Source of the DNA: Oscillospiraceae bacterium
Lineage (GTDB): Bacteria; Bacillota; Clostridia; Oscillospirales; Oscillospiraceae
Reading direction: 5' to 3'
Length of the DNA: 54,640 nucleotides
Assembly: GCA_017548065.1 (NCBI GenBank)
Contig: JAFYNQ010000055.1
Location: 1-54,640, forward strand
Shown here: positions 28,450 through 48,955 of the stretch, one piece after another
How positions within the stretch are numbered: position 1 is the stretch's first letter
Layout: every line of letters begins with the position of its first letter
Notes under the pieces: model-generated
What the model saw: only the letters and a program-made list of their open reading frames with translations
The model's database searches: none
What the model was told of the DNA's origin: nothing
Program-made: the position numbers and the translations under genes

Positions 28450-31400
28450 ATGAAAAAAAGAATCACAAGCTTTTTCCTGGCATTGTTATTACTGGCCTCC
28501 ATGGTGGTAGTGCCGGCAAATGCCGTGACAACTGCATTGACGGAGACAACGCTGCCGGAGGTTTGTCCTTGCGGTTGCGGCGAGGCATTTGACCAGCTGC
28601 AGTGGCGTGTGTGGAATCCCAACAACGGTCAGCATGTGTCCAACGGACACTATTACCTGGAGAATAACTATGTCCAGGACGAGCAGTTCGGCATTTCTGC
28701 CGGCGAAAAGATCGTGCTGGATCTGCGTGGTTATGAACTGTCCGGCGCAGACTATGGACGTCTTTTCCTGGATAACGGCTACCTGGCTGTGGTGGACACA
28801 GTAGGTGGCGGTAAAATGAGCGCCAAAACAGCCGGCAACGGCTTTGGCGGTCTGCTGCTGATGCAGACCGATGGCACTTTTGAACTTTACGGCGGCACGG
28901 TTACCGTGGATGTCGATAACAAGGCCAGCCGTCGTGGCGGCCTGATCTCCGTCGGTACAAGATGCACCTTCAATATGTACGGCGGCATGGTCATGGGCGG
29001 CAACTCCGATGGCACTACGGCCGAAGAGGGAGGTTGTATCGCTTCTGCTACCAGCAGCGCAACCATTCAAATTCTGGGCGGTACGGTTATGGGCGGCTAT
29101 TCTCCCAAGCATGGCGGTAATATCTACAGTAAGGGTACACTGATCCTGAAAAACTGTAAGGTCATGGGCGGTACAGCAGACGGCTACGGCGGCAATATCT
29201 ACCAGTCCGGCGGCAGCATCACCGTGGAAAACTGCGAAATTTCCCACGGTGTGTCCAATGGCACAGCTACCACAGTGACCGGCGGCGGTAACATCTGTGC
29301 CGTCAGCTCTGCCAAGGTCACTGTGAAAGATACCAAGATCCACAACGGTTATGCCGCATCTTACGGCGGCAACGTCTATGCCGGCAGTGGCAGCCAAAGC
29401 TTTGAAAATGTTACCATAACTGCCGGTGTCAGTGGAAAAGAAGGCGGCAACATCCGCATTGCGGCCAGTGCTGTAGAGACCCTTACGGATTGCACCATTG
29501 ACGGTGACGTTTCCGGCGCCGGCACATTGACACTGGCAGGAAAGACAAAGATCGGCCTTCGTAACACCGGTCTTTCCCTGACAGGCTCTTTGTCGGCAAA
29601 AGACCTGTGTGACGGTGCAGAAATTTACATTTCCGCAGAAGGCGCATTGCCGGATGCCAAGGCAGAATATTTTAAGCCTGCCATCCGTACAGTGCTGACA
29701 GAAAATGAAAACGGTCTTGTGGCAACAACGGCGGCAGACGGCGAGATTGCCGGTTACTGCCCTCACTGCAATACCCGTGTTGCATGGACTGCTTGCGGCA
29801 ACACTGCATTTTCTGCAGACGGTCACTACTATCTGTCTGCCACTCAATCCTCCTACGGGCAGAAAACCATCAATAATGATATTGTCCTTGACCTGAACGG
29901 CTTTAACCTCACCGGCACTTCCCGTGCTTTCTTTGCAAAAGAGGGTTCTGCCCTTGCACTGCTGGACAGTGTGGGCGGCAGTACCGTTACTATGACCGGT
30001 GCAGCAGACGGTCACGGCGGCATTATTCGTAATGACAAAGGTAACCTGAAGATCTTCGGCGGTAAATACGTGCTGAAGGCCGGCAGGAACGTGCGTTGCG
30101 GCGGTATTATCTACACCTCCGGCAAGACCAATATTGCAGGCGGTGTTTTTGACGCAAGTGTTTATGAGAACACCGCAGACAACGGCGCAAATATTTATCA
30201 GCTCAGTGGCGCAGCTTATTCTTTGAATATTTCTGCCGGTTATTTTATGGGCGGCAGAACCAATTACGGCGGCGCGCTTTACATGGGCTATAACGTAAAA
30301 ACAAATATTACCGGCGGTCACTTCACCGGCGGCAGCGCAGCTACCACCGGCGGCAATCTTTACGTGGAAGGCAAAAGCAGCTACAAAACCGGTACATTGC
30401 AGATCCATGATGTTGCCATCACAAACGGTCATGCAGACACCTCCGGCGGCAATGTGAGCATTACCTATTATGAAACGGTGAGCGTTGCAGATTCTTACAT
30501 TGCCAAAGGCTCTGCCACCAAGTATGGCGGTAATATCCACGCAAATACAAACAGCACCTTTGCCCGGTACGAAAACTGCGTTATTTACGGCGGCAGTTCC
30601 CAGCGTGGCGGTAACGTGTATGACGGTGCTTTGGGCGGTCGTATCAGACTCACAAACTGTGAAATTTTGGAAGGCGCAGCATCTGCTGCCGGCGGCAATA
30701 TTTGTGTAAACCACGGCTATGTGGAGATCAAGGGCGGCACTGTGGCTTACGGCACAGCGGCAGAAGACGGTGGCAATATCTACTCCGCTGCCGGCTCCTC
30801 CAATGAAGACGGCGCAAAGAATTACCTGAAGCTTCTGCAAGACAGTAACGGCAATGCGCCGATGCTCCTGGGCGGTGTAGCAGGCGATAGCGGCGGCAAT
30901 ATCTATTTCTACGGCGTGTGCCACCTGACCGATGCCCATATCCAAAACGGCAGAGCCAAAACTTCCGGCGCAGACCTGTATCGTGGCAAAGGCTCTTTGC
31001 AGAATGTTCTCTCCGTGGGAGAAGGCGTTACCGGCAATATCAGCATTTTTGTCAATTCCGGTCTCCTGGGTAGCCCCGTGTACGGTCAGGAAGTTGTCGG
31101 CGCTACCGCAGAGACATTAAAGGCGACCATCACCCTGGAGGGTGACTACGGCATGCCTCAGCTTTGTGCCAAGGACGGCGCACTGGTAGTGGCAGGCGCT
31201 GTGCTGGTGGGCGGCGAGACCGTGGAGGGCTACGCAGTTGCCACCGATGCCGCAGCGGACTGCAAGGAGGGTCAGTATGTAAAGCTCTTCACCGATGCTG
31301 TGCTGACACTGAACAAAGATGCCACCGTTGACCTCAATGGCTTCACAGCCAATGTCAGCGGCAACGGCGCACTTTTGGGCATGGACAGTGCAGGCGGCGG

Positions 31401-33783
31401 CAAGGCTGTGTGGGAAACTGCTGCCAATACGGCAGAGGTGACCTTCGCTCCCGACGGCAAGCACTATGTTGCCGTCCAAAACGGCGCAGAGGCCACATAC
31501 CACCTGCTGGATATGGCCATCACCGGTGTTGCCATCCGTCCCTCTGAAGACGGCATGTACTATACCGGCAAATGGAACTGCGACGAAGCGCTGCTTGCCC
31601 AGCTGGACAGCTACGGCGTGGCAGTGGATACTGTGGCAGAACCCGGCAACGATTTTGTTACAAACGAAACGACCCTGTGGACAGAATTTGAAGCGTCTAC
31701 CATGGTTTCCGGCGAGAGCAAGACCGGCGCAATTATCAGCGGCATTATGAAGCAGGAGCGGAAAGCTGCCCTGAACGATGCTTACGGCAAAATGCCCGTG
31801 TTTGCAGCAGCCTATGTGAAGCTGAAGTCCGGCACTACCATTGTCAGCGACAGTGTTGGCTACAGCCTGCACTCTGTGATGCAGAGCCTGGAGACCCTGG
31901 TGGAGCAGAATCCTGCTACCTACGGCAAATATATGTACAATGCCGGTGCGTTCTACCGTCAGTGGAAGGCAAACGGCATGGGCTCCTGGGACTTTAACAG
32001 AATTTCCATTGATCCTCTCTGCCCCTGGAACTACAATGTGGTGGAAAAGGCTGTGCAGAGCGGCGAAATGCACTATTACTTCATGTCCGGCGAATGGCAT
32101 GCTTACAGCGGCGGCAATTCCGAGCCGGAAAAGTGGGGCGATAGCTGCCTGATCGTATTCCTCGATGGACAGACCATGCTTATTGACACCGGCGTGACCC
32201 AGTACGGGCCTATCCTGGTGGAAAATCTCAAGCGTATGGGTGTAACAAAAATTGATCATCTGGTCATCTCCCACCCCCATAGTGACCACCAGAACGGTGC
32301 ATTCAGCAACAAAAATAACACATCGGGAGTCGGCCTTCTGGATCAGTTTGCCATCGGTCAGGTTTACCACCGTGGCGGCTATGATTCTCAAAACCTGGTA
32401 AGCAGCCAGCTTGTGGAGACAGTTTGCGCAGAGAGAAATCTGCCCTTGCAGATCCTGGAAATGGGCGACACATTGCAGATCGGTGAGGTGGCCATTCAGG
32501 TGCTGTGGCCTAAGGTGGGCACCAGTGAGAAGGACACCACCGGTGTAAATGCGGCGGCTACCAATAATACTTCTGTGGTTATGCGTTTTGATTACAAGAA
32601 CCATTCTTCTTTGTTTACCGGCGACTTGTATACAGAACGTGAGGCAGAGCTTATCAAGACCTATGAAGCCGACGTGCTGGATGTGGATCTTTTGAAAGCA
32701 CCCCACCACGGCAACGGCATAACCTCCAACAGCGAGGCGTTTGTCAATGCAGTTTCTCCCGAAATTGCGGTTGCTACCGGCTTTGAAGCAATTTCCGCCA
32801 GCACCGAGCTGTATTATTCCAATGCAGGCGCAACCCTTTTGGGTGACCGTACCTATGGCTATATTCATGTGACCACCGACGGTGAGACCATGGATTACGA
32901 AACCTCCCGTACCTCTGCCTTCACAGAAGGTCTGGACGGAAAGCGTGTGCTGTTTGTGGGCAACTCCTTCATGCACTACGGAAAAGCGGTTCTGTATAAT
33001 TACACCTCCACCGAGGAGGCTCGCCACAACGACGCAGGCTATTTCTACCAGCTGTGTAAGTCCCAGGGCGCAGAGGTGGATGTGGTAAACTGGACTTACA
33101 GTGGCTTGTCCCTGCAAAATATTATGGATCAGCATATCCCCGATTTTCAGGACTACAATTACGATTATGTGATTTTGAACTGCGACAGAAGCTCTACCCA
33201 TACCATTGAAAGCTATGAGAAGCTGATGGAGCAGTACATCCAAGTCTTCCGTGGTGCGAATCCCAACGTGAAAATGTATCTGCTGGTGACCTCCGGCACC
33301 CACAACATTTCCGTGAAAGAGACGTTCCCTATGGATCTTCTGAACAATCTGGACAGAATCGAGGCTATGGATATCCGTGTCCTGGACTGGGGTAAGCTGG
33401 TGGCAGATATCATCCGTGGCGAAACCCAGGTTCCCGGTGCCACAAAGGAATATAACAAGTATTCCTTCATCCACAATGCAACGGCAGAGGATGGCTACCA
33501 TCCCAACCAGCTGACCGGCTATATTATTTCCATGTTTGTGTACAGCGCCCTCACCGGCGAGAGTGCTGTGGGTCTTCCTTATGATTTCTGGTGCGACAGC
33601 AGCATCAGCGACCAGTTTGACCCCCAAAGCTACCTGGAGTTTGGCTATCAGTACGGTCCTACCAACTACCAGGAGATCTTTAACTCTCCTGCAGACATGG
33701 CAGGTCTCCAGCAGCTGGTAGACCGGTACATTGCAGAAAAAGCCTACCTGGACTATAATTTTACGGAAGTTCCCAAAAACTAA
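28450..33783 (+). CDS. Giant secreted beta-helix protein with metallo-beta-lactamase and SGNH domains
   Basis: This 1777-residue protein starts at 28450 after AGGAAGG; an in-frame extension runs into the structured leader. The signal peptide is residues 1-25 (PANA). Cys-rich caps C39-P-C-G-C43 and C437-P-H-C440 each open a right-handed beta-helix block with recurrent GGN(I/V)Y turns. A connector domain (about 1019-1190) is shared with the protein at 43604. A ComEC-like metallo-beta-lactamase domain (about 1228-1490) has HPHSDH at about 1275. The C-terminal SGNH domain has Ser1506 in VGNSF and D1681/H1684 in DGYHPNQ. No cell-wall anchor is visible. It is probably a surface or released hydrolase acting on glycans or phosphoesters; the substrate is unknown. 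Confidence 0.83.
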   Translation: MKKRITSFFLALLLLASMVVVPANAVTTALTETTLPEVCPCGCGEAFDQLQWRVWNPNNGQHVSNGHYYLENNYVQDEQFGISAGEKIVLDLRGYELSGADYGRLFLDNGYLAVVDTVGGGKMSAKTAGNGFGGLLLMQTDGTFELYGGTVTVDVDNKASRRGGLISVGTRCTFNMYGGMVMGGNSDGTTAEEGGCIASATSSATIQILGGTVMGGYSPKHGGNIYSKGTLILKNCKVMGGTADGYGGNIYQSGGSITVENCEISHGVSNGTATTVTGGGNICAVSSAKVTVKDTKIHNGYAASYGGNVYAGSGSQSFENVTITAGVSGKEGGNIRIAASAVETLTDCTIDGDVSGAGTLTLAGKTKIGLRNTGLSLTGSLSAKDLCDGAEIYISAEGALPDAKAEYFKPAIRTVLTENENGLVATTAADGEIAGYCPHCNTRVAWTACGNTAFSADGHYYLSATQSSYGQKTINNDIVLDLNGFNLTGTSRAFFAKEGSALALLDSVGGSTVTMTGAADGHGGIIRNDKGNLKIFGGKYVLKAGRNVRCGGIIYTSGKTNIAGGVFDASVYENTADNGANIYQLSGAAYSLNISAGYFMGGRTNYGGALYMGYNVKTNITGGHFTGGSAATTGGNLYVEGKSSYKTGTLQIHDVAITNGHADTSGGNVSITYYETVSVADSYIAKGSATKYGGNIHANTNSTFARYENCVIYGGSSQRGGNVYDGALGGRIRLTNCEILEGAASAAGGNICVNHGYVEIKGGTVAYGTAAEDGGNIYSAAGSSNEDGAKNYLKLLQDSNGNAPMLLGGVAGDSGGNIYFYGVCHLTDAHIQNGRAKTSGADLYRGKGSLQNVLSVGEGVTGNISIFVNSGLLGSPVYGQEVVGATAETLKATITLEGDYGMPQLCAKDGALVVAGAVLVGGETVEGYAVATDAAADCKEGQYVKLFTDAVLTLNKDATVDLNGFTANVSGNGALLGMDSAGGGKAVWETAANTAEVTFAPDGKHYVAVQNGAEATYHLLDMAITGVAIRPSEDGMYYTGKWNCDEALLAQLDSYGVAVDTVAEPGNDFVTNETTLWTEFEASTMVSGESKTGAIISGIMKQERKAALNDAYGKMPVFAAAYVKLKSGTTIVSDSVGYSLHSVMQSLETLVEQNPATYGKYMYNAGAFYRQWKANGMGSWDFNRISIDPLCPWNYNVVEKAVQSGEMHYYFMSGEWHAYSGGNSEPEKWGDSCLIVFLDGQTMLIDTGVTQYGPILVENLKRMGVTKIDHLVISHPHSDHQNGAFSNKNNTSGVGLLDQFAIGQVYHRGGYDSQNLVSSQLVETVCAERNLPLQILEMGDTLQIGEVAIQVLWPKVGTSEKDTTGVNAAATNNTSVVMRFDYKNHSSLFTGDLYTEREAELIKTYEADVLDVDLLKAPHHGNGITSNSEAFVNAVSPEIAVATGFEAISASTELYYSNAGATLLGDRTYGYIHVTTDGETMDYETSRTSAFTEGLDGKRVLFVGNSFMHYGKAVLYNYTSTEEARHNDAGYFYQLCKSQGAEVDVVNWTYSGLSLQNIMDQHIPDFQDYNYDYVILNCDRSSTHTIESYEKLMEQYIQVFRGANPNVKMYLLVTSGTHNISVKETFPMDLLNNLDRIEAMDIRVLDWGKLVADIIRGETQVPGATKEYNKYSFIHNATAEDGYHPNQLTGYIISMFVYSALTGESAVGLPYDFWCDSSISDQFDPQSYLEFGYQYGPTNYQEIFNSPADMAGLQQLVDRYIAEKAYLDYNFTEVPKN

Positions 33784-33790
33784 ATTTCGG

Positions 33791-33819
33791 TTGACTTTTG
33801 GTGAGAAAACGAGTATCAT
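33791..33819 (+). promoter_or_regulatory. Putative promoter of the glpP operon
   Basis: TTGACT (33791-33796) and TATCAT (33814-33819) are separated by 17 bp. Transcription would begin at about 33826, at the first base of the conserved leader motif. Confidence 0.65.
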
Positions 33820-33825
33820 AATAAA

Positions 33826-33889
33826 AGAGATTTGGAGAAACGGAAAAACTGCAGGTGGCGACACCTGCAGCTTTGCCGTTTCTTTTTTT
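33826..33889 (+). promoter_or_regulatory. glpP leader: putative GlpP target overlapping a terminator
   Basis: AGAGATTTGGAGAAA (33826-33840) is identical to the motif in the leader at 34475. It overlaps the rising arm of a terminator: outer arms GAAACGG (33837-33843) / CCGTTTC (33876-33882), inner arms CTGCAGGTG (33849-33857) / CACCTGCAG (33862-33870), then T-run 33883-33889. Binding of GlpP to the shared motif would block the terminator and autoregulate glpP (inference). Confidence 0.7.
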
Positions 33890-33900
33890 GGAGGGGTTGT

Positions 33901-34455
33901 ATGCGGGAAATCATGGATTGCCTGGAGCAGGATCCCGTGATCGCAGCTGTGGGCAATGACAAGTGGCAAAAGGCATTGGAGAGTCCCGCCAAAGTGATTT
34001 TCTATATGTCTGCCGACCTTTTGACCCTGGAAGAGAGGGTAAAGCAGGCGCACAGCACCGGGAAATATATCATGGTGCATATGGACATGGCTGACGGCAT
34101 CGGACGTGACCGCACGGGACTTCGCTTCCTGAAAAATTGCGGCGTGGACGGTGTGATCTCCACAAAAGGTCAGCTGATCCGTGGCGCAAAGGAGCTGGGT
34201 CTGTTTACGGTGCAGCGCTTCTTTGCGGTGGACTCCGCCGGTGTGGAAAGCCTGGGAGAAATGCTTCGCAGTACCATGCCGGATGTGATGGAGATCATGC
34301 CCGGTGTTGTGACCAAGGTGATCGCACGGTTTGCCGCCACCGGCATCCCGGTGATCGCAGGCGGACTGATTCAGACGAAAAACGAAGTTACCGATGCTCT
34401 GGGGGCAGGCGCTACCGCCGTTTCCACGGGACAGCCGGAACTTTGGTATATGTAA
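33901..34455 (+). CDS. glpP: Glycerol uptake operon antiterminator, GlpP family
   Basis: This 184-residue cytoplasmic protein is the usual length for GlpP. The TIM-barrel-like pattern VHMDMADGIGRD, GVDGVISTKGQLIRGAKELG, VQRFFAVDSAG and MEIMPGV, then PVIAGGLIQTKNEV, is diagnostic. GlpP family members bind leader RNA in response to glycerol 3-phosphate and prevent early termination of glp genes. The start at 33901 is preceded by GGAGGGG, which lies just after the leader terminator. The adjacent flavoprotein operon is the expected target and carries the same leader motif. Confidence 0.93.
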   Translation: MREIMDCLEQDPVIAAVGNDKWQKALESPAKVIFYMSADLLTLEERVKQAHSTGKYIMVHMDMADGIGRDRTGLRFLKNCGVDGVISTKGQLIRGAKELGLFTVQRFFAVDSAGVESLGEMLRSTMPDVMEIMPGVVTKVIARFAATGIPVIAGGLIQTKNEVTDALGAGATAVSTGQPELWYM

Positions 34456-34474
34456 AAACATAATAATTACTTGC

Positions 34475-34540
34475 AGAGATTTGGAGAAAGCAGGAGCATT
34501 GCGACACGGAAAACCGTGCCGCTGCTTCCTGCTTTTTTTT
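34475..34540 (+). promoter_or_regulatory. Leader of the glp flavoprotein operon: putative GlpP target plus terminator
   Basis: AGAGATTTGGAGAAA (34475-34489) repeats the glpP leader motif exactly. Its last bases are the start of the terminator arm AAAGCAGGA (34487-34495), which pairs with TCCTGCTTT (34527-34535); an inner helix CACGG/CCGTG lies between, and the T-run extends to 34540. Both leaders also contain GCGACAC. No clear promoter was found between glpP and this leader, so the terminator probably gates read-through from the glpP promoter. Confidence 0.7.
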
Positions 34541-34553
34541 AGGGAGGAAATGT

Positions 34554-35990
34554 ATGAAATTTGATGTTGTGATCGTAGGTGCCGGTGTCACCGGCGCCAT
34601 GCTGGCAAGAAACCTGAGCCGCTATCAGCTGTCCGTCTGCCTTTTGGAAAAGGAAAATGACGTGGCAATGGGCGCCAGCAAAGCCAATTCCGGCATTGTC
34701 CACGGCGGCTATGACCCGGAGCCGGGAACCATGAAGGCACTGCTGAACACCCGTGGTGTGGCGCTTTTGTACCGTGCCGCAGAGGAACTGAACGTGCCTT
34801 GCATCCGCAACGGATCTATGGTCTGCGCTTTCTCCCAGGCAGAAGAGGCGCATTTGGAGGCGCTGCTGCGCCGTGGTGCGGAAAACAATATCAGCGGCCT
34901 TTCCATTCTGTCCGGTGATGAGGCAAGAAAAATAGAGCCCCATTTGTCCGGGGAGGTGACGAAAGTCCTCCATGTGCCCAATGCCGGCATTATCAGTCCC
35001 TATGAGCTGACCATCGCCGCTGTGGGAAATGCTATGGACAACGGTGTGAGCCTTTGCCGGAACTTTGCTGTCAGCGCCATTGCAAAAACGGAGGAGGGCT
35101 TTGTTGTTACGGCAGAGAGCGGTGAAACGGTTACGGGAAGCTACCTTGTTAACTGCGCAGGCGGCAATGCAGACAAGATCGCTGCCCTGGCAGGCGACGG
35201 CTTTTTTACCCTCATTCCTCGTGCCGGTGAGTATATGCTGCTGGACAAGGCAGAGGGATATAAAGCAAAGCATACGCTGTTCCAGTGCCCCTCTGAAAAG
35301 GGTAAGGGAATTCTGGTATCGCCCACTGTGCATGGCAACCTGCTCATTGGGCCTACCGCTATCCCTGTGGAAACGGAGAACAGCCGTGACACCACCCCGG
35401 AGGGTCTTGCAGAGGTGGTGGAGCTGTCTCTGCGCACTGTACCCTCTGTGGACACCCGTCAGGTGATCACCTCCTTTACCGGCGTTCGTGCATCGGAAAA
35501 GAGCGGCGATTTTATCCTGCAGGAATCCAAGACCGTGCCGGGGCTGATCCATGCAGCAGCCATTGATTCTCCGGGTCTGACATGCTGTGTTGCCATTGCT
35601 GAGTGTCTCACCGCCCTTTTGGCGCAGGCAGGACTGTCCTTGCAGGAAAAAGAGAGCTGGGACGGCACAAGAGAGGATATCTGTGCATTCCGGGAAATGA
35701 AAGACAGCGAAAAGGATGCCTACATCAAAGAAAATCCTGCCTATGGCAAGATCGTCTGCCGCTGTGAGACTGTGAGCGAGGGTGAGATATTGCGTGCCAT
35801 TCACCAAAACCCCGGCGCAAGAGATATAGACGGCGTGAAGCGCCGTACCCGCAGCGGCATGGGTCGCTGTCAGGGCGGCTTCTGCGGACCGTATATTATG
35901 CAGCTTTTAAGTCGGGAACTGGGCATCCCCATGGAGCAGGTGACAAAGTCCGGCGAAGGCTCCCAAATGCTGATAGGAGAGTTGAACTGA
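34554..35990 (+). CDS. glpA: FAD-dependent glycerol-3-phosphate dehydrogenase, GlpA-like, with BFD-type [2Fe-2S] domain
   Basis: This 478-residue protein has an N-terminal Rossmann FAD motif (VVIVGAGVTGAMLA), and ASKANSGIVHGGYD is the DAO-fold signature of GlpA/GlpO-like proteins. The last 90 residues form a BFD-like [2Fe-2S] domain with CRCETV and CQGGFC. It should oxidise glycerol 3-phosphate to dihydroxyacetone phosphate with the next two gene products as electron-transfer partners. Lhgo-type 2-hydroxyglutarate oxidases share the fold, but the GlpP context favours glycerol phosphate. GGGAGG precedes the ATG. Its stop overlaps the next start by 1 base. Confidence 0.88.
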   Translation: MKFDVVIVGAGVTGAMLARNLSRYQLSVCLLEKENDVAMGASKANSGIVHGGYDPEPGTMKALLNTRGVALLYRAAEELNVPCIRNGSMVCAFSQAEEAHLEALLRRGAENNISGLSILSGDEARKIEPHLSGEVTKVLHVPNAGIISPYELTIAAVGNAMDNGVSLCRNFAVSAIAKTEEGFVVTAESGETVTGSYLVNCAGGNADKIAALAGDGFFTLIPRAGEYMLLDKAEGYKAKHTLFQCPSEKGKGILVSPTVHGNLLIGPTAIPVETENSRDTTPEGLAEVVELSLRTVPSVDTRQVITSFTGVRASEKSGDFILQESKTVPGLIHAAAIDSPGLTCCVAIAECLTALLAQAGLSLQEKESWDGTREDICAFREMKDSEKDAYIKENPAYGKIVCRCETVSEGEILRAIHQNPGARDIDGVKRRTRSGMGRCQGGFCGPYIMQLLSRELGIPMEQVTKSGEGSQMLIGELN

Positions 35991-37231
35991 TGACAAATCA
36001 TGATATTGTAGTGGTCGGTGGCGGCCCTGCAGGTATGGCAGCGGCTGTGGCAGCCTATGACGCAGGCTGCACCGATGTGGTAATATTGGAAAGAGAGCCG
36101 TCCATTGGCGGCATTTTGATGCAGTGCATTCACAACGGCTTCGGTCTGCATAAGCTGGGTCAGGAACTGACAGGCCCGGAGTATGCAGCGGTGTATGCAA
36201 AAGAGGTTGCAAAAAGAGGCATAAAGGTTTATACTGAAACTACTGTGACCAAGGTCACCGAAGAGAAGGAGATCACCGCCCAAAATCGGGAGGGTATCCT
36301 GAAGATCAAGGCAAAGGCCGTGATCCTTGCTATGGGCTGCCGTGAGCGCAGCCGTGGCGCACTGAATATCTGCGGCTCCCGTCCTGCCGGTGTGTACAGC
36401 GCCGGTACTGCCCAGAAGCTGGTGAATTGCTTTGGTTACCAGGTGGGCAAAAAGGCTGTGATCCTTGGCTCCGGCGATATCGGACTGATCATGGCTCGCC
36501 GTATGTCCCTGGAGGGAGCAAAGGTGGAGGCCGTGTGTGAGGTCATGCCCTACAGCGGCGGTCTTACCCGAAATATCGTTCAGTGCCTGGAGGACTTCGG
36601 CATTCCGCTGTACTTAAGTACCACGGTGGTACGCATCCACGGCGAAAAGCGCCTGGAGGGTGTTACCATTGCCCAGGTGGACGAAAAGCGCCAGCCGGTG
36701 GAAGGCACCCAGCGCTATATCCCTTGTGATACCTTGCTGCTGTCTGTGGGTCTTATCCCGGAAAACGAACTGACAAGACTGGCAGGCATCCCCATTGACC
36801 CGATTACAAACGGTGCGATCGTGGATGAAAACTGTCAGACAGCTGTCCCCGGCATCTTTGCCTGCGGCAACGTGCTGCAGGTGCATGACCTGGTGGACTA
36901 TGTGTCCGAGGAGGCAGAGCGTGCAGGCAGAGCCGCTGCCTGCCTGACTACCGATACCCAAAGCATCGCCCTGGAAACAAAGGCGGGCTACGGTGTCCGC
37001 TATGTGATCCCCCAGGTGATCCGCAGCCGGGAAGCCGGCGCTGAGCTGTTCCTGCGTGTGACGGCACCCTTCGGAAAGGTGCGCTTTGTGGTCACCGACG
37101 GTGAAAAGGTGCTGCACACCGCAAAACGGTTGAAGGCTGCGCCCGGTGAGATGGAAAAGCTTACCCTGAAGCCGGAAATGCTGAAAGCTGCAACCGGCCC
37201 CATCACAGTTTCTTTGGAGGTGATGGCATGA
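35990..37231 (+). CDS. FAD/NAD(P)-dependent oxidoreductase subunit, GlpB-like
   Basis: This 413-residue pyridine nucleotide-disulfide oxidoreductase-type flavoprotein has an FAD motif (VVVGGGPAGMAAAVAA) near the N-terminus, a second dinucleotide motif (AVILGSGDIGLIMARRM, about 158-174), and the C-terminal FAD-binding segment GIFACGNV. A segment CIHNGFGLH lies near residue 45. The start overlaps the previous stop (TGATG). It probably passes electrons from the GlpA-like subunit. Its order with the GlpA-like and DUF1667 genes is the common clostridial arrangement. The position replaces classical GlpB, but the sequence is a Pyr_redox_2 protein, so I give no symbol. Confidence 0.85.
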   Translation: MTNHDIVVVGGGPAGMAAAVAAYDAGCTDVVILEREPSIGGILMQCIHNGFGLHKLGQELTGPEYAAVYAKEVAKRGIKVYTETTVTKVTEEKEITAQNREGILKIKAKAVILAMGCRERSRGALNICGSRPAGVYSAGTAQKLVNCFGYQVGKKAVILGSGDIGLIMARRMSLEGAKVEAVCEVMPYSGGLTRNIVQCLEDFGIPLYLSTTVVRIHGEKRLEGVTIAQVDEKRQPVEGTQRYIPCDTLLLSVGLIPENELTRLAGIPIDPITNGAIVDENCQTAVPGIFACGNVLQVHDLVDYVSEEAERAGRAAACLTTDTQSIALETKAGYGVRYVIPQVIRSREAGAELFLRVTAPFGKVRFVVTDGEKVLHTAKRLKAAPGEMEKLTLKPEMLKAATGPITVSLEVMA

Positions 37232-37575
37232 AGCGTCAGCTGACTTGTATTATTTGTCCCCGGGGCTGCGCCCTGGAAGCCACTGTGCAGGACGGTCAGG
37301 TCACCGTCACCGGTAATGCCTGCCAAAGAGGCGCCGAGTATGCGGTAAGTGAGTGCCTGCACCCGGTGCGCACAGTTACCACCATTGTAAAGGTGGCAAA
37401 CAGAGAAAACACCATGGTATCCGTGAAGACGGAGACACCCGTACCCAAGGAAAGCATGGCAGAGGTGGTTGCCGCTCTGCGGAAGCTTTCTGTGGCGGCT
37501 CCCGTGGCAGTGGGAGACGTGATCGCTGAAAATGTTTGCGGCAGCAGAATCGTTGCCACAAAAGATATAACCTAG
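37228..37575 (+). CDS. DUF1667 family protein, Cys-rich partner of the glp flavoproteins
   Basis: This 115-residue protein has an N-terminal CIICPRGC motif and a later NACQRGAEYA segment, giving four closely spaced cysteines suited to metal or Fe-S binding, as in DUF1667 proteins. A start overlapping the previous stop by 4 bp (ATGA) implies coupled translation. In clostridial genomes this family commonly follows the two flavoproteins, so it is likely the third, small electron-transfer subunit of the glycerol-3-phosphate dehydrogenase. Its biochemical role is inferred from context. Confidence 0.85.
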   Translation: MKRQLTCIICPRGCALEATVQDGQVTVTGNACQRGAEYAVSECLHPVRTVTTIVKVANRENTMVSVKTETPVPKESMAEVVAALRKLSVAAPVAVGDVIAENVCGSRIVATKDIT

Positions 37576-37584
37576 GAGGCTATT

Positions 37585-38373
37585 ATGAAGATTTCGGATA
37601 TGCAGCTGTTTTTGTTTGATATGGACGGTACGCTGTACCTGGGAGACCGACTGTTTACCTTCACAAAGGAACTGCTGGAAACCTTGAAAAAGAAGGGCAA
37701 AAAGTACTTGTTCATGACAAACAACTCCTCCAAAAGCGTGGAGGACTATGTGAAAAAGCTGGAGAAGCTGGGCATTGCCGCCACCCGTGAGGACTTTATG
37801 ACCTCTTCCCAGGCAACGGCCTACTATCTGCATATCCATCACGAGGGACAGAGACTGTACGTCTGCGGTACGGAATCTTTGAAAGCAGAGCTGCGCCGTG
37901 AGGGCTTTACAGTAACGGAAAAGGTGGAGGAGACTGATTGCATCGTTATGGGCTTTGATACAGAGCTTACCTTCCAGAAGCTGCATGACGTAAGTTATCT
38001 GCTGCTGACCCGTAAGGATATCCCTTACATTGCCACCAATCCCGACCTTGTATGTCCCACAGAGTTTGGTAGCGTGCCGGATTGCGGCAGCGTATGCGCC
38101 GCTGTGAAAAATGCCACCGGCAGACTGCCTGTGGTCATTGGCAAGCCTGCGCCTTTGATGCCCCAGCTGGCAATGGATAAGCTGGGCATCCCCAAGGAAC
38201 AGACCTGCGTCATCGGTGACCGTATTTATACAGATATCAAGTCCGGATTGAATGCCGGTGCCATGGGGATCCTGGTGCTCTCCGGCGAGACCACCAAAGA
38301 GATCCTGGCAGAAAGCCCCGACAAGCCTCACCTGGTGCTGCAGGATGCCGGTGAGCTGTTGGGAATGCTGTAA
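37585..38373 (+). CDS. HAD-superfamily class IIA phosphatase (NagD/Pho13-like)
   Basis: This 262-residue cytoplasmic protein has motif I DMDGTLYLGD (nucleophile Asp near residue 13), motif II FMTNNSSKS, the class IIA cap region, and motif IV GDRIYTDIKSGLNAG. Relatives dephosphorylate glycolate 2-phosphate, glycerol 3-phosphate or related small molecules. The position 9 bp after the glp flavoprotein operon makes glycerol 3-phosphate or another C2/C3 phosphate a reasonable substrate guess. AGGAGG precedes the ATG. No terminator separates it from the operon. Confidence 0.88.
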   Translation: MKISDMQLFLFDMDGTLYLGDRLFTFTKELLETLKKKGKKYLFMTNNSSKSVEDYVKKLEKLGIAATREDFMTSSQATAYYLHIHHEGQRLYVCGTESLKAELRREGFTVTEKVEETDCIVMGFDTELTFQKLHDVSYLLLTRKDIPYIATNPDLVCPTEFGSVPDCGSVCAAVKNATGRLPVVIGKPAPLMPQLAMDKLGIPKEQTCVIGDRIYTDIKSGLNAGAMGILVLSGETTKEILAESPDKPHLVLQDAGELLGML

Positions 38374-38381
38374 CCGGAAGC

Positions 38382-38410
38382 TTGCAAATGGCGTTTAAAG
38401 GGTGTATAAT
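38382..38410 (+). promoter_or_regulatory. Putative promoter of the histidine phosphatase-GDPD pair
   Basis: TTGCAA (38382-38387) and perfect TATAAT (38405-38410) are separated by 17 bp, 25 bp before the start at 38436. Confidence 0.7.
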
Positions 38411-38435
38411 AGGGAAAACACCTGGAGGTAATTTT

Positions 38436-39038: not shown

Positions 39039-39048
39039 GGAGTAACCT

Positions 39049-42554: not shown

Positions 42555-42555
42555 G

Positions 42556-43320
42556 TTATTTGCTGTTTTTGGGAATGAAGACTGCAGGACTTTTTCCAAA
42601 GTGCTTTTTGAACATTTTGGAAAAATTGGCGGCATCGGGGTAGCCTACGAGCCGAGCAGTCTCTTTGACACTGAAGCCATGCTGGAGGTGAAGGGTAGCG
42701 GCCTCCATGCGGACGGTGATCAGGTGCTGCTGAATGGATTGCCCGGTCTCTTGCTTAAACAGCCAAGACAGATACCGGCGATCCAGGTTAAACTGGTTGG
42801 CAATGTCTTCCACACGCAGAGGCAGCATATAGGAGGTCTGAATATAATTCTGCACCTTCTGCACATAGGGGTTGCCAACACCCTTCCGGGAAAACAGACG
42901 GGCATACAGCTTAAACAGCTCCGCAGCAATGCGATACTCTGCAACAGAGGGGTCGTCTGCTACCTCCAGCATTTTTTGCAGAATGGTCTCCGGTAAGGGA
43001 AATACCGGTGGAAGCGTGGCAAAATGGGTGGACAGCCTACCGTCAAAGCCGATCCAGCGGTAATGCCAGGGGTCGTTACTGTCGGCACGGTAGTTGGCGA
43101 CCACACCGGGCAGGATCAAAAAAGCCTCTCCTGCCTTTACGGGATAGGCTTGCCCTCCCACATAAAACATACCCTTGCCGCTGATGACGGAGTGGATCAG
43201 TACGTAATTGCGTCGCTGGGGCTTCGTGCCATGCTCCGGGTCACAGATGTGCTCGCCGGCGATCAGCGGATTCAAGTCGGCCAGTTGCCGGTTGGTAAGA
43301 AAAAGATTATAGGCATTCAA
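42556..43320 (-). CDS. AraC-family transcriptional regulator with cupin sensor domain
   Basis: This protein is about 254 residues. The frame opens further upstream to 43377, but that first codon is the -35 box of the likely promoter (43348-43377), so the start must be internal. I prefer the TTG at 43320, with AAAGG 12 nt upstream; the true start is uncertain. The N-terminal cupin (YVLIHSVISGKGMFYVGG, AGEAFLILPG, WHYRWIGFDG) is typical of sugar-sensing members. The C-terminal helices are LRVEDIANQFNLDRRYLSWL and FSVKETARLVGYPDAANFSK, ending FGKSPAVF. It is divergent from the giant gene at 43604, a likely target. Confidence 0.88.
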   Translation of the reverse strand: MNAYNLFLTNRQLADLNPLIAGEHICDPEHGTKPQRRNYVLIHSVISGKGMFYVGGQAYPVKAGEAFLILPGVVANYRADSNDPWHYRWIGFDGRLSTHFATLPPVFPLPETILQKMLEVADDPSVAEYRIAAELFKLYARLFSRKGVGNPYVQKVQNYIQTSYMLPLRVEDIANQFNLDRRYLSWLFKQETGQSIQQHLITVRMEAATLHLQHGFSVKETARLVGYPDAANFSKMFKKHFGKSPAVFIPKNSK

Positions 43321-43347
43321 ATATAACACCAGCCTTTGAAATATTAC

Positions 43348-43377
43348 ATTATGACATATACGTCTTACATTTTGCAA
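43348..43377 (-). promoter_or_regulatory. Putative promoter of the AraC regulator at 42556
   Basis: On the minus strand, TTGCAA (43377-43372) and CATAAT (43353-43348) are separated by 18 bp. A divergent TATAAT at 43400-43405 on the plus strand, with a poor -35 box, probably serves the gene at 43604. Confidence 0.5.
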
Positions 43378-43558: not shown

Positions 43559-43603
43559 GAAGTAATCAAACAGAGCGATCTGTTAAAAATAGGAGGAAGG
43601 GTT

Positions 43604-46600
43604 ATGAAAAAAACCATTGCAATCGCATTGCTTACAGTAATCCTTATTGTGGCCTGCGTCGCCTTTGGCGTGTCTGCAGCCCAGGAAGGTGTTTACTGTC
43701 CGCACTGTGATACATATGTCACCGACTGGACAGAGTGGACAGCCTCGGCCAGCGGCAGCCATTCTCATACGGCTGGCGGACACTACTACCTTGCCAAAAA
43801 TTTTACGGGCATGGGTGGCCGTTACGGCATCAATACCGGAACGGAGACAGTGGTGCTTGACCTCCGTGGTCATGCTATTGAATCCACCAACAACCGTTGC
43901 TTCTTTGTCAGCGGTGGTACTTTGGCCATTATAGACTCCGAAGGCAGCGGCACTATGACCGGTGCCCGTGACGGCGACGGCAACCTGTACGTGGCTTCCG
44001 GCGCTACCATTGATATGTATGGCGGTACTGCAAAAACCTCCCGTACCAGCATTTCCTCCACCGGCAGCTGCGGCAGCGTGTTGTACGTGCTGAAGGGCGG
44101 TACATTCAATCTGCATGGCGGCACCCTGGACGGCAGTGCCATCACCACCAGAAACACAATGAGTGGCACAGCTTGCGTTAAGGGCACAATGAATATTTAC
44201 GGCGGCACCATCTCCGGCGGTAATTCCACATACGGTGGTAATGTCTACCTGGATGGCGGCACGCTGAATATGACCGGTGGCACCATCACTGGCGGTCAGG
44301 CTGTGAATGGCGGTAATATCTACACAAAAAATGCCGCAACCGTTACTATCGGCTGCGACACTGCAAGGAATACGGTTGCCATGGTTACCAAGGGCCATGC
44401 AACCACCACCAGTGGTCTAGGCGGCAACCTCTGCGTCAACGGCGGTTCTACTGTGAACCTTTATGGAGGTAAGATCACAGACGGCATCAGTGATGCTCGT
44501 GGTGGCAACATCTCCAACGGTGGCGCAAACACCTATAACATCACCTCCGGCGAGATGACCGGCGGCTCTGCCGGTACAGACGGCGCCAACATGTTTGTAA
44601 ACAACGGTTCTGTTGCCCTGAATATCAGCGGTGGCTATATTGATGGCGGTATGGATATCCGCCTGACACCCAATATCAGCCTTTCCGGCGCTCCCGTGAT
44701 CACCGACAATAAGGGCGGTCTTGTGCTGAATCTGGGTACTACCCATGCAAAGCTGCAACTGGGCGAATTGAAGGACGGCGCAGAGATCTATGTCTCTGCC
44801 TCCGGCGCTTTTACCGATGCGCTGGAAAATGCCGAGAGTTACTTGCAGTATATCAAACCCGGCAATAACGCATTGCAGCTGGCAGCTCAGGACAATAAGC
44901 TGGTGGCAGGTATTGTCTGTCCCCACTGTGACAAGATCGTGGAATGGGTGGCTTGCCCCCTGACCAACGGTGGCGCAGACTATGCCATCCGCGAGGATGC
45001 CCACTACTACCTGACACAGGATCTGACCAAGGTCTCCTCCCAGTTCTATATCGGCGTGAAGGATGAAGCCACACCTGATGTGGTCATTGACCTGCGTGGA
45101 CATAAGGTGCAGTCCACTTCCCGTGCCTTCTACGTGCGTCCCAATGCGAAGCTTTCTGTGGTAGATACCGCAGCCGGCGGTAAGATCACCACCACCCATA
45201 ATAAGACCGGCGGTCTTGCTTACGTGGAAAAGAACGGAAGCATCTCTGTTTACGGCGGCACGTTCTATTCCAACGGAACATCTGCGGAAGCCACATGGTA
45301 CGGCGGTGTGATCTATGCAGAGACCGGCGGCACCGTGAACATTGCAGGCGGTGAACTGTATGGCGCAAAGACCACCCACGGCGGTGTCATCTATGCGGCT
45401 TACCAGAACACCGTGAACATCACCGGCGGCAAGATCTACGGCGGCGAAGTTGCCACCGCAGGTGGCGCAGTCTATATCTACGGTGGCACACTGAATATGT
45501 CCGGCGGCACAGTTACCGGCGGTAGCGCCAACAACGGTGGCAACCTGTATATCAACAAAGCTGTGGCAAATCTCACCGGCGGTACTGTAAGTAACGGTTC
45601 CGGCAGCTACGGCGGCAACATCGGTGTCACGGAGAACGGAAGCTGCCTGAACCTGGGCGCTTGTAACGTTACCGGCGGCTCTGCCACCGGTAGCGGTCTG
45701 GACATCTATCTGTCCGGCACCGGCGCACTGAAGGTGCTGAAGACCTTTGCAGGCAATGCTTCTGTGGGTGTGAATACTGCCCATCTTACAGATAAGAACC
45801 CCGGCGCAGCTCTGAACACAGCGCTTGACAGCGCAGAGGGCTGCTTCCCCGGCATCCTGACTCTGGAATCCATCAGCACAAAGCCCCAGCTTTGCGGCGC
45901 TGACGGTGAGACCGGTTTGTACATTGCCTCTGCCGCGTTGGCGGATGCAAACCTGAATCTGACCTGGTATGCCAACAATAAGTCCGCTGTGGCAAATTAC
46001 GGCAGCGCTGTCTGCCTGCTGCCTGCAGCCGGTGACCTGGAACTGACCGGCGGTAACTACCTGGTAGATGTGGGCGGCAAGACCATTGCCATCACCGGCA
46101 CCGGCAACGTGACCTGCTTTGATAGCAGCAACGATACATTTGAAACCTTCGGCACTGTTACCGTAAACGGCCCTGCGCTGCAAAACCAGGCGCTGACCAA
46201 TGTGGGCGGCAAAGACTATGTGACACTGAATGAAAGCGGAACTTTGAGCTTCCACAGACTGGAAATGGGCATCCACGGTGTGACACTTCGTCCCTCTGTG
46301 GCAGGCTTCTACTATACCGGTCTGTGGCAGATGGATGACTACCTGGCAACAAAGGCCTACGGCTTTGGTGTGGCAGTAAGCACAGCCGGCGCACCCACAG
46401 TGGAACTGATGGCGCAGGATCAGGTGCTTTGGACTGCCTTTAAGGGCGAAGACCTGAAAAACGGCACACCCATCACCGGCGCATTGATCGCCAATGTGCT
46501 GAAGGAGGGCGAGCGCTTTAACGATGTCCGTGGCAGAACCTCGGTGTTCGGCGCTACCTACCTGGCGCTGGCAGACGGCACTGTTTTGTTGAGCGAGGAC

Positions 46601-48955
46601 AGCGTGAACTACAGCCTCTACGATGTAATGCAGGCGCTGGACGAGACAGCCTATGCGCAGAATGCCGACGCACTGAACGCTTTCTACAACACCTGGAAGG
46701 ACGTTCTCTCCGGCTGGCAGCTGCAGAACATCGGCAAGACCCTTTTGGAGAAAAACGGCATCCCCTATATTATGGGTGATGTGCTTTACGAATCCGATTT
46801 TGAAGAAGACACAGTGGGACAGCTTCCTGAAGGCTGGTCCGCAGGTCTTTATGGAGGTACCGGCAATGCCGGTACCTCTTTCGGCTGGACCGGCAGCGGT
46901 GGTACGGCATCTGCGCAGGTGACGGAGTTTGGGGAATATGGTAAGGTCTATCAGGTGCAGTCTTCCAATGCGGATGCCTTCACGGCTATGCCTGCTATTC
47001 ACAGCGCCGATTACTTCTATGAGGCAGAGCTTTATATCATCCGCAAGGGCGGCATCGGTCTTGCCAATAACTTCTATGCACCTACCTACGATGCCACCGG
47101 CGTCATGTTTACCTCCATGTACCCCGGCACCACCAATGCCTGCAAGTATACCTACAAGGGACAGCCGCTCAACAAGAGTACTGAATGGGAAAACAGTGAA
47201 AATCCCACTGTTGGCGAGGTGGTAAAGCTGCAGATATTAAGTGTCAGCGGCAAGAACTACATTTTCAACAACGGCAAGGTAGCAGCGATCTGCGACAGCC
47301 GTGCCGGCGGAAATGGTGTTGACTATCCCGGTTTTTATACCTGCGGCGGCAGCGCTTATGTGCTGAATGTAAAAGTAACCGAGATACTCTCTGCTAAGGT
47401 GGAGGTGGACTCCGCAAAGCTGGGATTGGGTGAAAATACCGCCCTTATGGAACTGAATATCAGCGCTGCCACTGACCAGCCCTTCTACCGTTACTATATG
47501 GCGCAGAAATTTGCATCTGTGAAATTTGGCGCCATCCTTCTGGTGGCAGACACGGATGCTTCTGCTACTTTGGATAAGGCTGTGGCAGGTGCAGAAGAAC
47601 TGATTTTTGACCTGAGCAAGGTCACGGTTACAGAAGAATGCATGCGTTTTACTGCAGCGTTGCCCATTCCTGCAGAAAATTATGAAAAGTGGTACTGTGT
47701 CCGTCCCTTTGTGGAGGCAGACGGTACCCGGATCTACAGCGACGGCGCTGCGTATATGCCGGTGGAGCTGGCAAACAGCGCATATTATAATGCGCCCACC
47801 CAGGAACTGAAGGCGTTGATTAAGAATCAGTTTGGTGCGCTTCCCGGTTTCCGTGCGGAGGAAAATGCCAAGGCGCTGACCTTCACGCTGTTCTCTGATT
47901 TTCATTATAAGGCAGGTATGTATGCCTCCACAATTGCAGACCTGAACACTATTTTGAAGCGTGCAGATGATACAAATTCCGCATTTGTCCTCTCTGCCGG
48001 TGACCTTACCAATGATGCGCTGGGTTCACCCGAACTGTTTAAGGCTTTCCTGAACTATGAGACTGCTGAGGGCAGTATTCTGCCTGCCTATAACATCTAC
48101 GGAAACCACGAGCTGGAAGCAGCCAACACCATGACCTATATGACACCCCGACTGACCAATGACGAAAATGTGTTTTGGGGTACTGCCGACGGCAGCTATG
48201 CCGAGGGCATCGGTTATTATTGCTTTGAGAGTCAGGGCTTCCGTGTGATCTGCCTGGACTCTGAGTATTCCTTTAATCCTTCCACCAACCAGTGGGAGCA
48301 TAACAAGTCCGGCAGCAGCGGCTGGCCTTCCGGCAACACCAAGGGTGGCTCCCTGGGTCCGCAGCAGCTGGCATGGCTGGAAGCTGTGCTGATGGATGCT
48401 GCAAGTAACGATATTCCTTGCGTCGTAGTGGCACACGATGGCTTTACCGGTATGAAATGGGCAAATACGTCCCCCGATTCCGATGCGGTCCGTGCGTTGT
48501 ATGCCAAGGCGAATAAGGCAAACCCCGGTACTGTGCTGATGTCCATCAACGGTCACATCCACACAAATCACCAGGGCTGGAATGATGGTGTATTCTATTT
48601 TGATACCAACACTGTCCGCAATGCATGGTGGCAGGAGACGGCGGTAGACCATTACACTGCAGAGCATACCTTTATGTACGAAGAGTATGACGATGAGGGC
48701 AATCTTATTGATACCTACCTGAAGCCTCTCAGTGAGCTGTCCATGGCAAAGAAGACCTGGTTCAGTGAAGATCCCCTCAGCTGTGTCATCACTGTCAGCA
48801 CGGATGGCATGGTGAAGGTGGACGGAGCCAAGTCCGACTGGGCATACGGCATTGCACCCACAACCACCGCAGACGGTGTTATGTGCGAGATCACCTCCGG
48901 CACCTTCTGGGATTGCGACCGCCTGGGTCACCTGGAAACTTGTGAGCATAACTAA
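43604..48955 (+). CDS. Giant secreted beta-helix protein with calcineurin-type phosphoesterase domain
   Basis: This 1783-residue protein has a signal peptide at 1-25 (GVSA). Caps C32-P-H-C35 and C439-P-H-C442 each introduce a beta-helix block with many GG(N/T)(I/V/L) turns. A connector (about 886-1050; MGIHGVTLRPSVAGFYYTG) is paralogous to that of the protein at 28450. A beta-sandwich of about 200 residues follows (from about 1065, DFEEDTVGQLPEGW). The C-terminal metallophosphoesterase domain has D1432/H1434 (SDFHY), D1467 (GDLTND), N1501/H1502 (GNHE), AHDG, and H1651/H1653 (NGHIH), a complete two-metal site. There is no wall-sorting signal. AGGAGGAAG precedes the ATG. It is probably an extracellular phosphoesterase; the substrate is unknown. 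Confidence 0.85.
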   Translation: MKKTIAIALLTVILIVACVAFGVSAAQEGVYCPHCDTYVTDWTEWTASASGSHSHTAGGHYYLAKNFTGMGGRYGINTGTETVVLDLRGHAIESTNNRCFFVSGGTLAIIDSEGSGTMTGARDGDGNLYVASGATIDMYGGTAKTSRTSISSTGSCGSVLYVLKGGTFNLHGGTLDGSAITTRNTMSGTACVKGTMNIYGGTISGGNSTYGGNVYLDGGTLNMTGGTITGGQAVNGGNIYTKNAATVTIGCDTARNTVAMVTKGHATTTSGLGGNLCVNGGSTVNLYGGKITDGISDARGGNISNGGANTYNITSGEMTGGSAGTDGANMFVNNGSVALNISGGYIDGGMDIRLTPNISLSGAPVITDNKGGLVLNLGTTHAKLQLGELKDGAEIYVSASGAFTDALENAESYLQYIKPGNNALQLAAQDNKLVAGIVCPHCDKIVEWVACPLTNGGADYAIREDAHYYLTQDLTKVSSQFYIGVKDEATPDVVIDLRGHKVQSTSRAFYVRPNAKLSVVDTAAGGKITTTHNKTGGLAYVEKNGSISVYGGTFYSNGTSAEATWYGGVIYAETGGTVNIAGGELYGAKTTHGGVIYAAYQNTVNITGGKIYGGEVATAGGAVYIYGGTLNMSGGTVTGGSANNGGNLYINKAVANLTGGTVSNGSGSYGGNIGVTENGSCLNLGACNVTGGSATGSGLDIYLSGTGALKVLKTFAGNASVGVNTAHLTDKNPGAALNTALDSAEGCFPGILTLESISTKPQLCGADGETGLYIASAALADANLNLTWYANNKSAVANYGSAVCLLPAAGDLELTGGNYLVDVGGKTIAITGTGNVTCFDSSNDTFETFGTVTVNGPALQNQALTNVGGKDYVTLNESGTLSFHRLEMGIHGVTLRPSVAGFYYTGLWQMDDYLATKAYGFGVAVSTAGAPTVELMAQDQVLWTAFKGEDLKNGTPITGALIANVLKEGERFNDVRGRTSVFGATYLALADGTVLLSEDSVNYSLYDVMQALDETAYAQNADALNAFYNTWKDVLSGWQLQNIGKTLLEKNGIPYIMGDVLYESDFEEDTVGQLPEGWSAGLYGGTGNAGTSFGWTGSGGTASAQVTEFGEYGKVYQVQSSNADAFTAMPAIHSADYFYEAELYIIRKGGIGLANNFYAPTYDATGVMFTSMYPGTTNACKYTYKGQPLNKSTEWENSENPTVGEVVKLQILSVSGKNYIFNNGKVAAICDSRAGGNGVDYPGFYTCGGSAYVLNVKVTEILSAKVEVDSAKLGLGENTALMELNISAATDQPFYRYYMAQKFASVKFGAILLVADTDASATLDKAVAGAEELIFDLSKVTVTEECMRFTAALPIPAENYEKWYCVRPFVEADGTRIYSDGAAYMPVELANSAYYNAPTQELKALIKNQFGALPGFRAEENAKALTFTLFSDFHYKAGMYASTIADLNTILKRADDTNSAFVLSAGDLTNDALGSPELFKAFLNYETAEGSILPAYNIYGNHELEAANTMTYMTPRLTNDENVFWGTADGSYAEGIGYYCFESQGFRVICLDSEYSFNPSTNQWEHNKSGSSGWPSGNTKGGSLGPQQLAWLEAVLMDAASNDIPCVVVAHDGFTGMKWANTSPDSDAVRALYAKANKANPGTVLMSINGHIHTNHQGWNDGVFYFDTNTVRNAWWQETAVDHYTAEHTFMYEEYDDEGNLIDTYLKPLSELSMAKKTWFSEDPLSCVITVSTDGMVKVDGAKSDWAYGIAPTTTADGVMCEITSGTFWDCDRLGHLETCEHN

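Follow-up and report, generated by a model that had tools for sequence, protein, structure and literature searches.

In cellulosomes, a shared module is the basis of an enzyme complex, and the dockerin/cohesin arrangement places many unrelated hydrolases on one small module. The pneumococcal esterase CbpE is held by choline-binding repeats. The gut methanogens Methanobrevibacter smithii and Methanosphaera stadtmanae have adhesin-like proteins (ALPs), which number more than 40 per genome, occupy more than 10% of the genome and combine right-handed beta-helix with immunoglobulin (Ig)-like domains (PMC11532034). The DUF4886 family of SGNH hydrolases has no member of known function (PMC9487903). 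Here we describe a protein domain, termed the connector, that is shared by two giant proteins, P0001 and P0002, encoded in a single stretch of Oscillospiraceae DNA. This stretch, the window, is the complete 54,640-nucleotide contig JAFYNQ010000055.1 of assembly GCA_017548065.1. It is contig 34 of a 2.46-Mb metagenome-assembled genome (MAG) that comprises 126 contigs, is 88.9% complete and probably belongs to the genus Faecousia.

As in cellulosomes, many unrelated hydrolases are found with one small module. However, no dockerin match was found in the host genome, and enzymes and rods are fused in one chain instead of being docked to a scaffoldin. As in the two methanogens, dozens of giant repetitive proteins with signal-peptide-like N termini, predicted beta-helix-like parts and a predicted Ig-like domain occupy much of the genome. 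In contrast to the ALPs, the Ig-like domain is a different one, no membrane anchor was recognized, the host is a bacterium, and 25 of the 44 nearly full copies in the genome are labelled with hydrolase-like heads.

The P0001 and P0002 genes begin with ATG at positions 28450 and 43604 and encode 1777 and 1783 amino acids, respectively. In both proteins, a signal peptide precedes two caps, each with a repeat block after it, and then come the connector and heads that differ, which is the order that a first-pass annotation of the window had proposed (Table 1). BLASTP aligns the two proteins in one block of 31% identity over 762 columns (E 4e-64), which extends from residue 1 through the second cap into the second repeat block, and in another of 31% over 556 columns (E 3e-43), which spans the connector and stops at P0001 residue 1185. 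A third alignment is located in the caps, and among the alignments listed none continues past the connector. The second cap occurs at nearly the same position in both proteins, with CPHC at residue 437 in P0001 and 439 in P0002. A Cys-rich first cap is likewise present in both, although that of P0001 reads CPCGC, not CPHC. The motif G-V-x-(I/L)-R-P-S-x-x-G-x-Y-Y-T-G is found in both connectors, as noted earlier. The domain is about 180 residues long, and when the P0001 copy is used to search the genome, the P0002 copy is matched with E 1.6e-27 and 42% identity.

The connector is predicted by AlphaFold to be a compact domain of strands followed by two helices, with a predicted local distance difference test score (pLDDT) of 94.4 and a predicted template modelling score (pTM) of 0.87. 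Foldseek aligns this model with FN3 and C2 chains at high probability (best E 3.8e-3, none below 1e-3), including the FN3 chain 5dft_A with probability 1.00 and a template modelling score by target of 0.60. The predicted sandwich may resemble the FN3/Ig-like linkers of bacterial glycosidases, and FN3 chains are near the top of the Foldseek matches. The connector differs from these linkers in its two extra C-terminal helices and in having no FN3 sequence match. Among 43 connectors compared with Pfam at E 0.1, no FN3 profile match, no match to the Big (Ig-like) families and no family that would name the domain were found; 17 families match, each in a single connector, the best at E 7e-4. A search of PDB sequences with the connector reached E 0.21 at best. 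A second model, covering the second cap, a repeat block and the connector (760 residues, 19 alignment rows), has a mean pLDDT of 91.8 and a pTM of 0.79. Its secondary structure is a ladder of many short strands, beta-helix-like, that continues into the connector. Its Foldseek neighbours include tailspikes, alginate lyases and the UpaB autotransporter, all at E above 0.04. These models predict that the repeat block forms a beta-helix-like rod and that the connector is an Ig-like joint.

About 48 giant proteins in the host genome share the connector. A single connector sequence matches 46 places in this genome, and a 102-row profile matches 50, some of which are pieces at contig ends. The 48 open reading frames (ORFs) with a connector total 195 kb, or 7.9% of the bases, and some form arrays, with six on contig C83 and five on contig C43. 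Connector pieces are located at the ends of contigs C66, C92, C76, C80 and C52 of the same assembly (G000). Such repeats interrupt the assembly, which probably makes the count of copies too low. Another locus of this genome (L057, contig C96) encodes two large proteins with near-identical connectors near the N terminus, one of which then has long repeats with caps.

The heads of P0001 and P0002 had been read as catalytic domains. The metallo-beta-lactamase (MBL) of P0001 matches Lactamase_B with E 3e-9 and 37.6 bits (Pfam cut-off 22.7) and includes HPHSDH, an HxHxDH motif, at residue 1275. Its best NCBIfam match is ComEC/Rec2, below the cut-off of that model, and its sequence relatives in the PDB, 9ic4 (E 1e-9) and 1wra (E 5e-5), point to the MBL domains of ComEC and of the phosphorylcholine esterase CbpE/Pce. 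P0001 differs from CbpE/Pce in that its MBL sits among caps, repeats and a connector. For the second P0001 head, a DUF4886 match (E 5.7e-5) and GNS and DGYHP signatures agree with an SGNH assignment, but 22.7 bits is under the Pfam cut-off of 26.7. The calcineurin-type phosphoesterase reading of P0002 comes from its motifs. Motifs of what we take to be the calcineurin metal-binding set occur in order (SDFH at residue 1431, GDLTND at 1466, GNHE at 1500, VAH at 1609 and GHIH at 1650), but profile matches are absent or sub-threshold. No Pfam family matches this head at E 0.05, and its NCBIfam match, the metallophosphoesterase model TIGR03767 (E 2e-4, 20.2 bits), is far under the cut-off of 330.75. 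Searches of PDB sequences with the P0002 head, with a metallophosphoesterase alignment and with the DCSG domain described below returned nothing useful.

The range of partners was surveyed in 134 connector ORFs from 14 genomes. Counts are based on the 128 nearly full connectors, six with fewer than 140 model positions having been dropped (five at contig ends and one weak). The connector is followed by at least 120 residues in 71 of the 128 copies, by 60 to 120 in one, and by 60 or fewer in 56. In the host genome, 27 of 44 copies have at least 120 residues after the connector, and 17 end at it. A cap is present in 34 of these 44, and at least two caps in 22 of the 27. Across all 134 ORFs, the cap profile recognizes a cap in 70. 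Since the connector is the last domain in so many copies and is near the N terminus in several ORFs (L057, L233 and L249), it is not strictly a connector as first described, and the term is used here as a name.

Fourteen kinds of head are distinguished after the connector. DUF4886-type SGNH domains are the most frequent, following 22 connectors alone and one more together with a DCSG domain; here this family is fused to caps, repeats and the connector. The other labels are a ceramidase-like group (11 copies), GDSL_2 (five), metallophosphoesterase (three, including P0002), CehA/McbA-type PHP (three), the DCSG domain (three), GH43 (two), MBL (two alone and one with SGNH), and a second SGNH type, an alpha/beta esterase, DUF2927 and GH66 (one each). 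The DCSG domain is presumably NlpC/P60-like, judging from its motif. Lactamase_B, DUF4886, GDSL_2, Metallophos, GH66, esterase, GH43 and DUF2927 exceed their Pfam cut-offs downstream of the connector in the 14 genomes. These eight families represent seven superfamilies, because DUF4886 and GDSL_2 are both SGNH. The GH66 match has E 4e-150, and DUF4886 (PF16227) matches reach 117 bits in L034 and 201 bits in L238, with E down to 2e-59. In the host genome only Lactamase_B and DUF4886 exceed the cut-off, and the wider range comes from relatives. Some downstream domains are several hundred residues past the connector, such as GH43 in L264 and Metallophos in L259. By a permissive pattern, 22 of the 25 SGNH heads after the connector have Ser and Asp-His signatures. 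Further matches (GH20b in L211, GH127M in L263, LamG and Flg_new_2) are over the cut-off and were not counted as heads, as they are marginal, include no stretch that passes alone, or are non-catalytic.

Some of these labels derive from others. Of the 72 post-connector segments of at least 120 residues, 40 were compared with Pfam as separate pieces and that of P0001 within its whole protein, along with part of the L249 segment and seven pre-connector pieces. The remaining segments were labelled by profiles built from the scanned heads, which is circular for the seeds. Among the pre-connector pieces, an M14 peptidase was found in L048 (over the cut-off) and L042 (under it), GDPD in L255, LamG and Metallophos in L204, and LRR_5 in L202; Pfam gave no match in L050 and only short, meaningless matches in L244.

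Several comparisons indicate that cassettes have changed partner or position. Over 737 columns, the P0002 cassette shares 58.8% identity with a stretch of L235 (residues 369-1098; genome G135) that precedes the connector of that protein (residues 1225-1416). The connector regions of the two proteins are only 33% identical, and the nearest relative of the P0002 connector in a connector tree is the headless L046, with 64% identity and a Shimodaira-Hasegawa approximate likelihood ratio test (SH-aLRT) value of 100. In L041, a DUF4886-type domain is located before the second cap and the connector is C-terminal; this domain is 44% identical to the post-connector head of L238. P0001 and L035 have sister connectors (SH-aLRT 96 in a quick tree without bootstrap), and their SGNH heads share 39% identity. 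In P0001, an MBL separates the connector from the SGNH head; L035 lacks it. The MBL domains of L052 and L044 share about 44% identity with that of P0001, and the connectors of these two proteins are elsewhere in the tree. Among the sequences compared, the closest to the P0001 SGNH head is a free-standing lipoprotein encoded upstream of P0001 (65% over 283 amino acids; Table 1). Judged from these identities, cassettes move across the connector. When 57 labelled heads of the 14 kinds are placed on the connector tree, 20 changes are required, compared with a minimum of 13 and with a mean of 32.8 (lowest 28) when labels are shuffled. Heads are thus mostly inherited with the connector and repeatedly replaced.

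The reading that we favour, with some reserve, is that the connector proteins form a lineage-specific, shuffling modular display platform for extracellular hydrolases. The first-pass annotation had proposed one exported module with exchangeable catalytic domains. The eight downstream families, and cassettes that switch side and partner, agree with this proposal; the capped scaffold is not universal. The proteins would be exported, given their signal-peptide-like N termini. One to six caps and, after each of them, a glycine-rich repeat block with a predicted beta-helix would build a stiff rod that might bind or lie along a polymeric substrate, or keep the enzyme away from the cell. The connector would be an autonomous Ig/FN3-like domain whose terminal helices provide a natural boundary in the predicted structure, so that catalytic cassettes could be joined to its end or precede it. 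Judging from cassettes that are esterase-, phosphoesterase- and glycosidase-like, the platform would most likely remove acyl esters and phosphoesters and open up complex glycans, or polymers of teichoic type, in the gut. In sum, we infer that the proteins are exported, are displayed at or close to the cell and act on decorated polymers. Diversity would arise by duplication and cassette exchange, and neighbouring free-standing lipoprotein enzymes are, from their identity to the heads, likely donors or recipients.

Several observations weigh against this interpretation. With no downstream head in 56 of the 128 copies, many may carry no enzyme, and the upstream scan covers seven proteins. Fifteen of the 71 post-connector segments are unlabelled. 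Heads with weak or sub-threshold matches include that of P0002, the ceramidase-like group (well below the cut-off in Pfam), CehA/McbA (just below it in NCBIfam) and the DCSG domain. Among the 25 heads of the host genome alone, 8 changes are required, and shuffling gives a mean of 9.9 and a lowest value of 8, which is not clearly different. Finally, only one of 40 same-genus genomes with completeness of 90% or more and contamination of 5% or less matches the connector, and each of the three genomes rich in connectors is an incomplete MAG (71-89% complete).

Genes with this one unannotated domain make up about 8% of the genome, and the domain labels many likely extracellular enzymes, many of them DUF4886. 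If the display platform is real, a connector profile would find such enzymes at once. The family would also be a natural experiment in domain shuffling, in which the same cassette is found on either side of a joint, and it would suggest a joint for protein engineering that accepts many partners. A further question is how the proteins would be retained at the surface, if they are, as no sortase, SLH or dockerin was found.

This question bears on the strongest alternative, that the connector is primarily a module for anchoring, docking or secretion sorting, with a role like that of dockerin, SLH or the type 9 C-terminal domain, and retains exported proteins on the cell surface or within a complex. 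Its terminal position in 56 copies, behind upstream parts as different as caps and the M14 peptidase of L048, is what such a module might look like. In the host genome there are no matches to dockerin (PF00404), sortase (PF04203) or SLH (PF00395), for which control matches were obtained in 2, 3 and 4 of the 14 genomes, respectively. None of the 134 ORFs has an LPxTG-type motif in its last 60 residues, and none has a hydrophobic C terminus by a simple test; N-terminal signal sequences are present. Therefore, some other anchor would be needed if the proteins are held at the surface. However, at least 120 residues follow the connector in most copies, it is near the N terminus in L057, L233 and L249, no partner domain was identified, and in a MAG that is 88.9% complete the absence of an anchor gene is unproved. 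Anchoring as the primary role is a plausible minority reading. A bolder version of the display platform would make the connector the founder of a genus-specific surface-assembly system. One undescribed Ig-like module would replace sortase, SLH and dockerin anchoring, dozens of unrelated hydrolases would be carried on beta-helix rods, cassettes would continually be gained, lost and moved across the module, and species would differ mainly in their extracellular enzyme arsenal. This proposal is speculative and rather unlikely to hold in full.

Alternatively, giant surface adhesins might have expanded in this lineage, with the connector serving as a mere spacer and the enzyme fusions being incidental. 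The methanogen ALPs are of the same scale, and the few enzymes among them are transglutaminase-like and papain (PMC11532034). Such scarcity contrasts with the host genome, in which 25 of the 27 copies with at least 120 residues after the connector have hydrolase-like heads, and we consider the adhesin explanation improbable.

The distribution of the connector could also be taken to mean that the giant genes were binned from another organism. With a 43-row profile, the connector is found in 14 of 136 same-genus genomes, including the host. The numbers of nearly full copies are 44 in the host, 31 in G033, 25 in G138, eight in G135, seven in G117, two in G107 and 11 in the others. The patchy distribution is real among the better genomes, and its connector-rich side comes from draft MAGs. 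A binning artefact is nevertheless very improbable. Three separate genomes of the genus have at least two dozen copies each, and P0001 and P0002 share their contig with an aspartokinase of Oscillospiraceae type. This enzyme is 70-82% identical to the best 80 of 323 loci, which are mostly titled Oscillospiraceae, Clostridia, Clostridiales, Eubacteriales or Bacillota; it is 81% identical to that of Candidatus Faecousia excrementigallinarum, and many relatives have ruminant-gut sample names. A contig titled Spirochaetaceae (L196) includes an aspartokinase 70% identical to that of the window and probably belongs to a mislabelled or mis-binned MAG.

The least tenable explanation is a polymorphic-toxin-like system with a constant exported trunk and exchangeable toxin tips, since the constant front, the variable back and the similarity of heads to free-standing genes would suit it, but the tips have matches in hydrolase families, a given cassette can be found on either side of the connector, and the genes after P0001 (G3P_antiterm) and P0002 (ROK, the nearest annotated gene) are not evident immunity genes, as judged at the window loci and with no dedicated toxin or immunity search.

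Beyond the genus, the 102-row profile matches one of 400 genomes in a family draw (the host), three of 391 in a class draw (the host and two weak matches) and one of 398 in a phylum draw (the host). An order draw gave four of 394 (the host and three weak partial matches); the draws overlap. The weak matches in other Clostridia (G199, G225, G254, G999 and G1023) are partial, with E from 1e-3 to 8e-6, and several centre on A-x-AY-x-L-x-DG-T. Their kinship with the connector is a candidate relationship. In L283 (G1023, minus-strand ORF), a cap match directly precedes the partial connector match, so distant kin outside the genus may exist. A tblastn search of plasmids and phages with one connector found no match. 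Among IMG/VR contigs, 48 pattern matches included none confirmed as a connector, nor were any of 35 pattern matches confirmed in a scan of genome contigs with a ten-sequence connector alignment.

The first-pass annotation had suggested an undescribed system. No Pfam family covers the connector, and the open-licence literature yielded no account of such a domain with many hydrolase families, but related kinds of system, such as the methanogen ALPs and cellulosomes, are known. Giant beta-helix and Ig-like families are established in gut methanogens (PMC11532034), and the apparently new element, within that literature, is a connector that is shared by many hydrolase families.

Table 1. Features of the P0001 and P0002 region (positions in the window)
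Feature	Position	Strand	Remarks
P0001 gene	28450..33783	+	1777 aa; signal peptide, cap 1, repeat block, cap 2, repeat block, connector, MBL head, SGNH head
P0001 cap 1	28543..28869	+	Residues ~32-140; cap profile
P0001 cap 2	29734..30042	+	CPHC at residue 437; seed of cap profile
P0001 connector	31453..32004	+	Profile; AlphaFold2 (AF2) prediction of Ig/FN3-like sandwich and two C-terminal helices; Foldseek
P0001 head 1	32017..32922	+	MBL fold, ComEC/CbpE-like; HPHSDH at residue 1275
P0001 head 2	32944..33756	+	SGNH hydrolase, DUF4886-like, below Pfam cut-off; GNS 1504, DGYHP 1681
P0002 gene	43604..48955	+	1783 aa; signal peptide, cap 1, repeat block, cap 2, repeat block, connector, phosphoesterase-like cassette
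P0002 cap 1	43679..43981	+	Cap profile
P0002 cap 2	44915..45232	+	CPHC at residue 439
P0002 connector	46208..46732	+	Profile and connector tree
P0002 cassette	46757..48937	+	Calcineurin-type motifs; 59% identical to L235 segment before connector
Four tandem free-standing paralogous SGNH (DUF4886-like) lipoproteins	20311..24651	+	50-67% identical to heads of contig C83 giants
Free-standing SGNH lipoprotein	26328..27290	+	Lipobox read by eye; 1.2 kb upstream of P0001
AraC-family regulator	27342..28199	-	Divergent to P0001; HTH_18 at 27378-27614
AraC-family regulator	42556..43377	-	Divergent to P0002; AraC_binding domain match
Genes between the giants	33832-39768		Glycerol-3-phosphate (G3P)-responsive antiterminator, flavin adenine dinucleotide (FAD) oxidoreductases (DAO, Pyr_redox), HAD, histidine phosphatase, GDPD
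Rest of region between the giants	to 42514		M42 peptidase, then fused AP_endonuc_2 and Lactamase_B_2 protein

Each of the two giant genes in the window is next to a divergent AraC-family gene, as had been reported. In the genome as a whole, this pairing is enriched and is not a rule. A divergent AraC gene is directly upstream of 8 of the 48 connector ORFs, compared with 0.56 expected if the 48 AraC matches were placed uniformly. An AraC match is located within 2 kb on some side of 15 of the 48, and 17 are on contigs without any. The genes between the giants, the CbpE-like MBL of P0001 and the motifs of P0002 suggest, as a guess from the neighbourhood, that the two proteins might act on phosphodiester- or teichoic-type polymers.

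Other large exported proteins are encoded near the start of the window, and none matches the connector. Two of these (positions 1512-4292 and 5577-9857) include a thioredoxin-like CxxC segment recognized by eye (SCSWCVTEFPF and NCQPCMLEFPF). The third, of 1470 amino acids (positions 10676-15088), is composed of repeated units that, as read by eye, end in Ig-like repeats.

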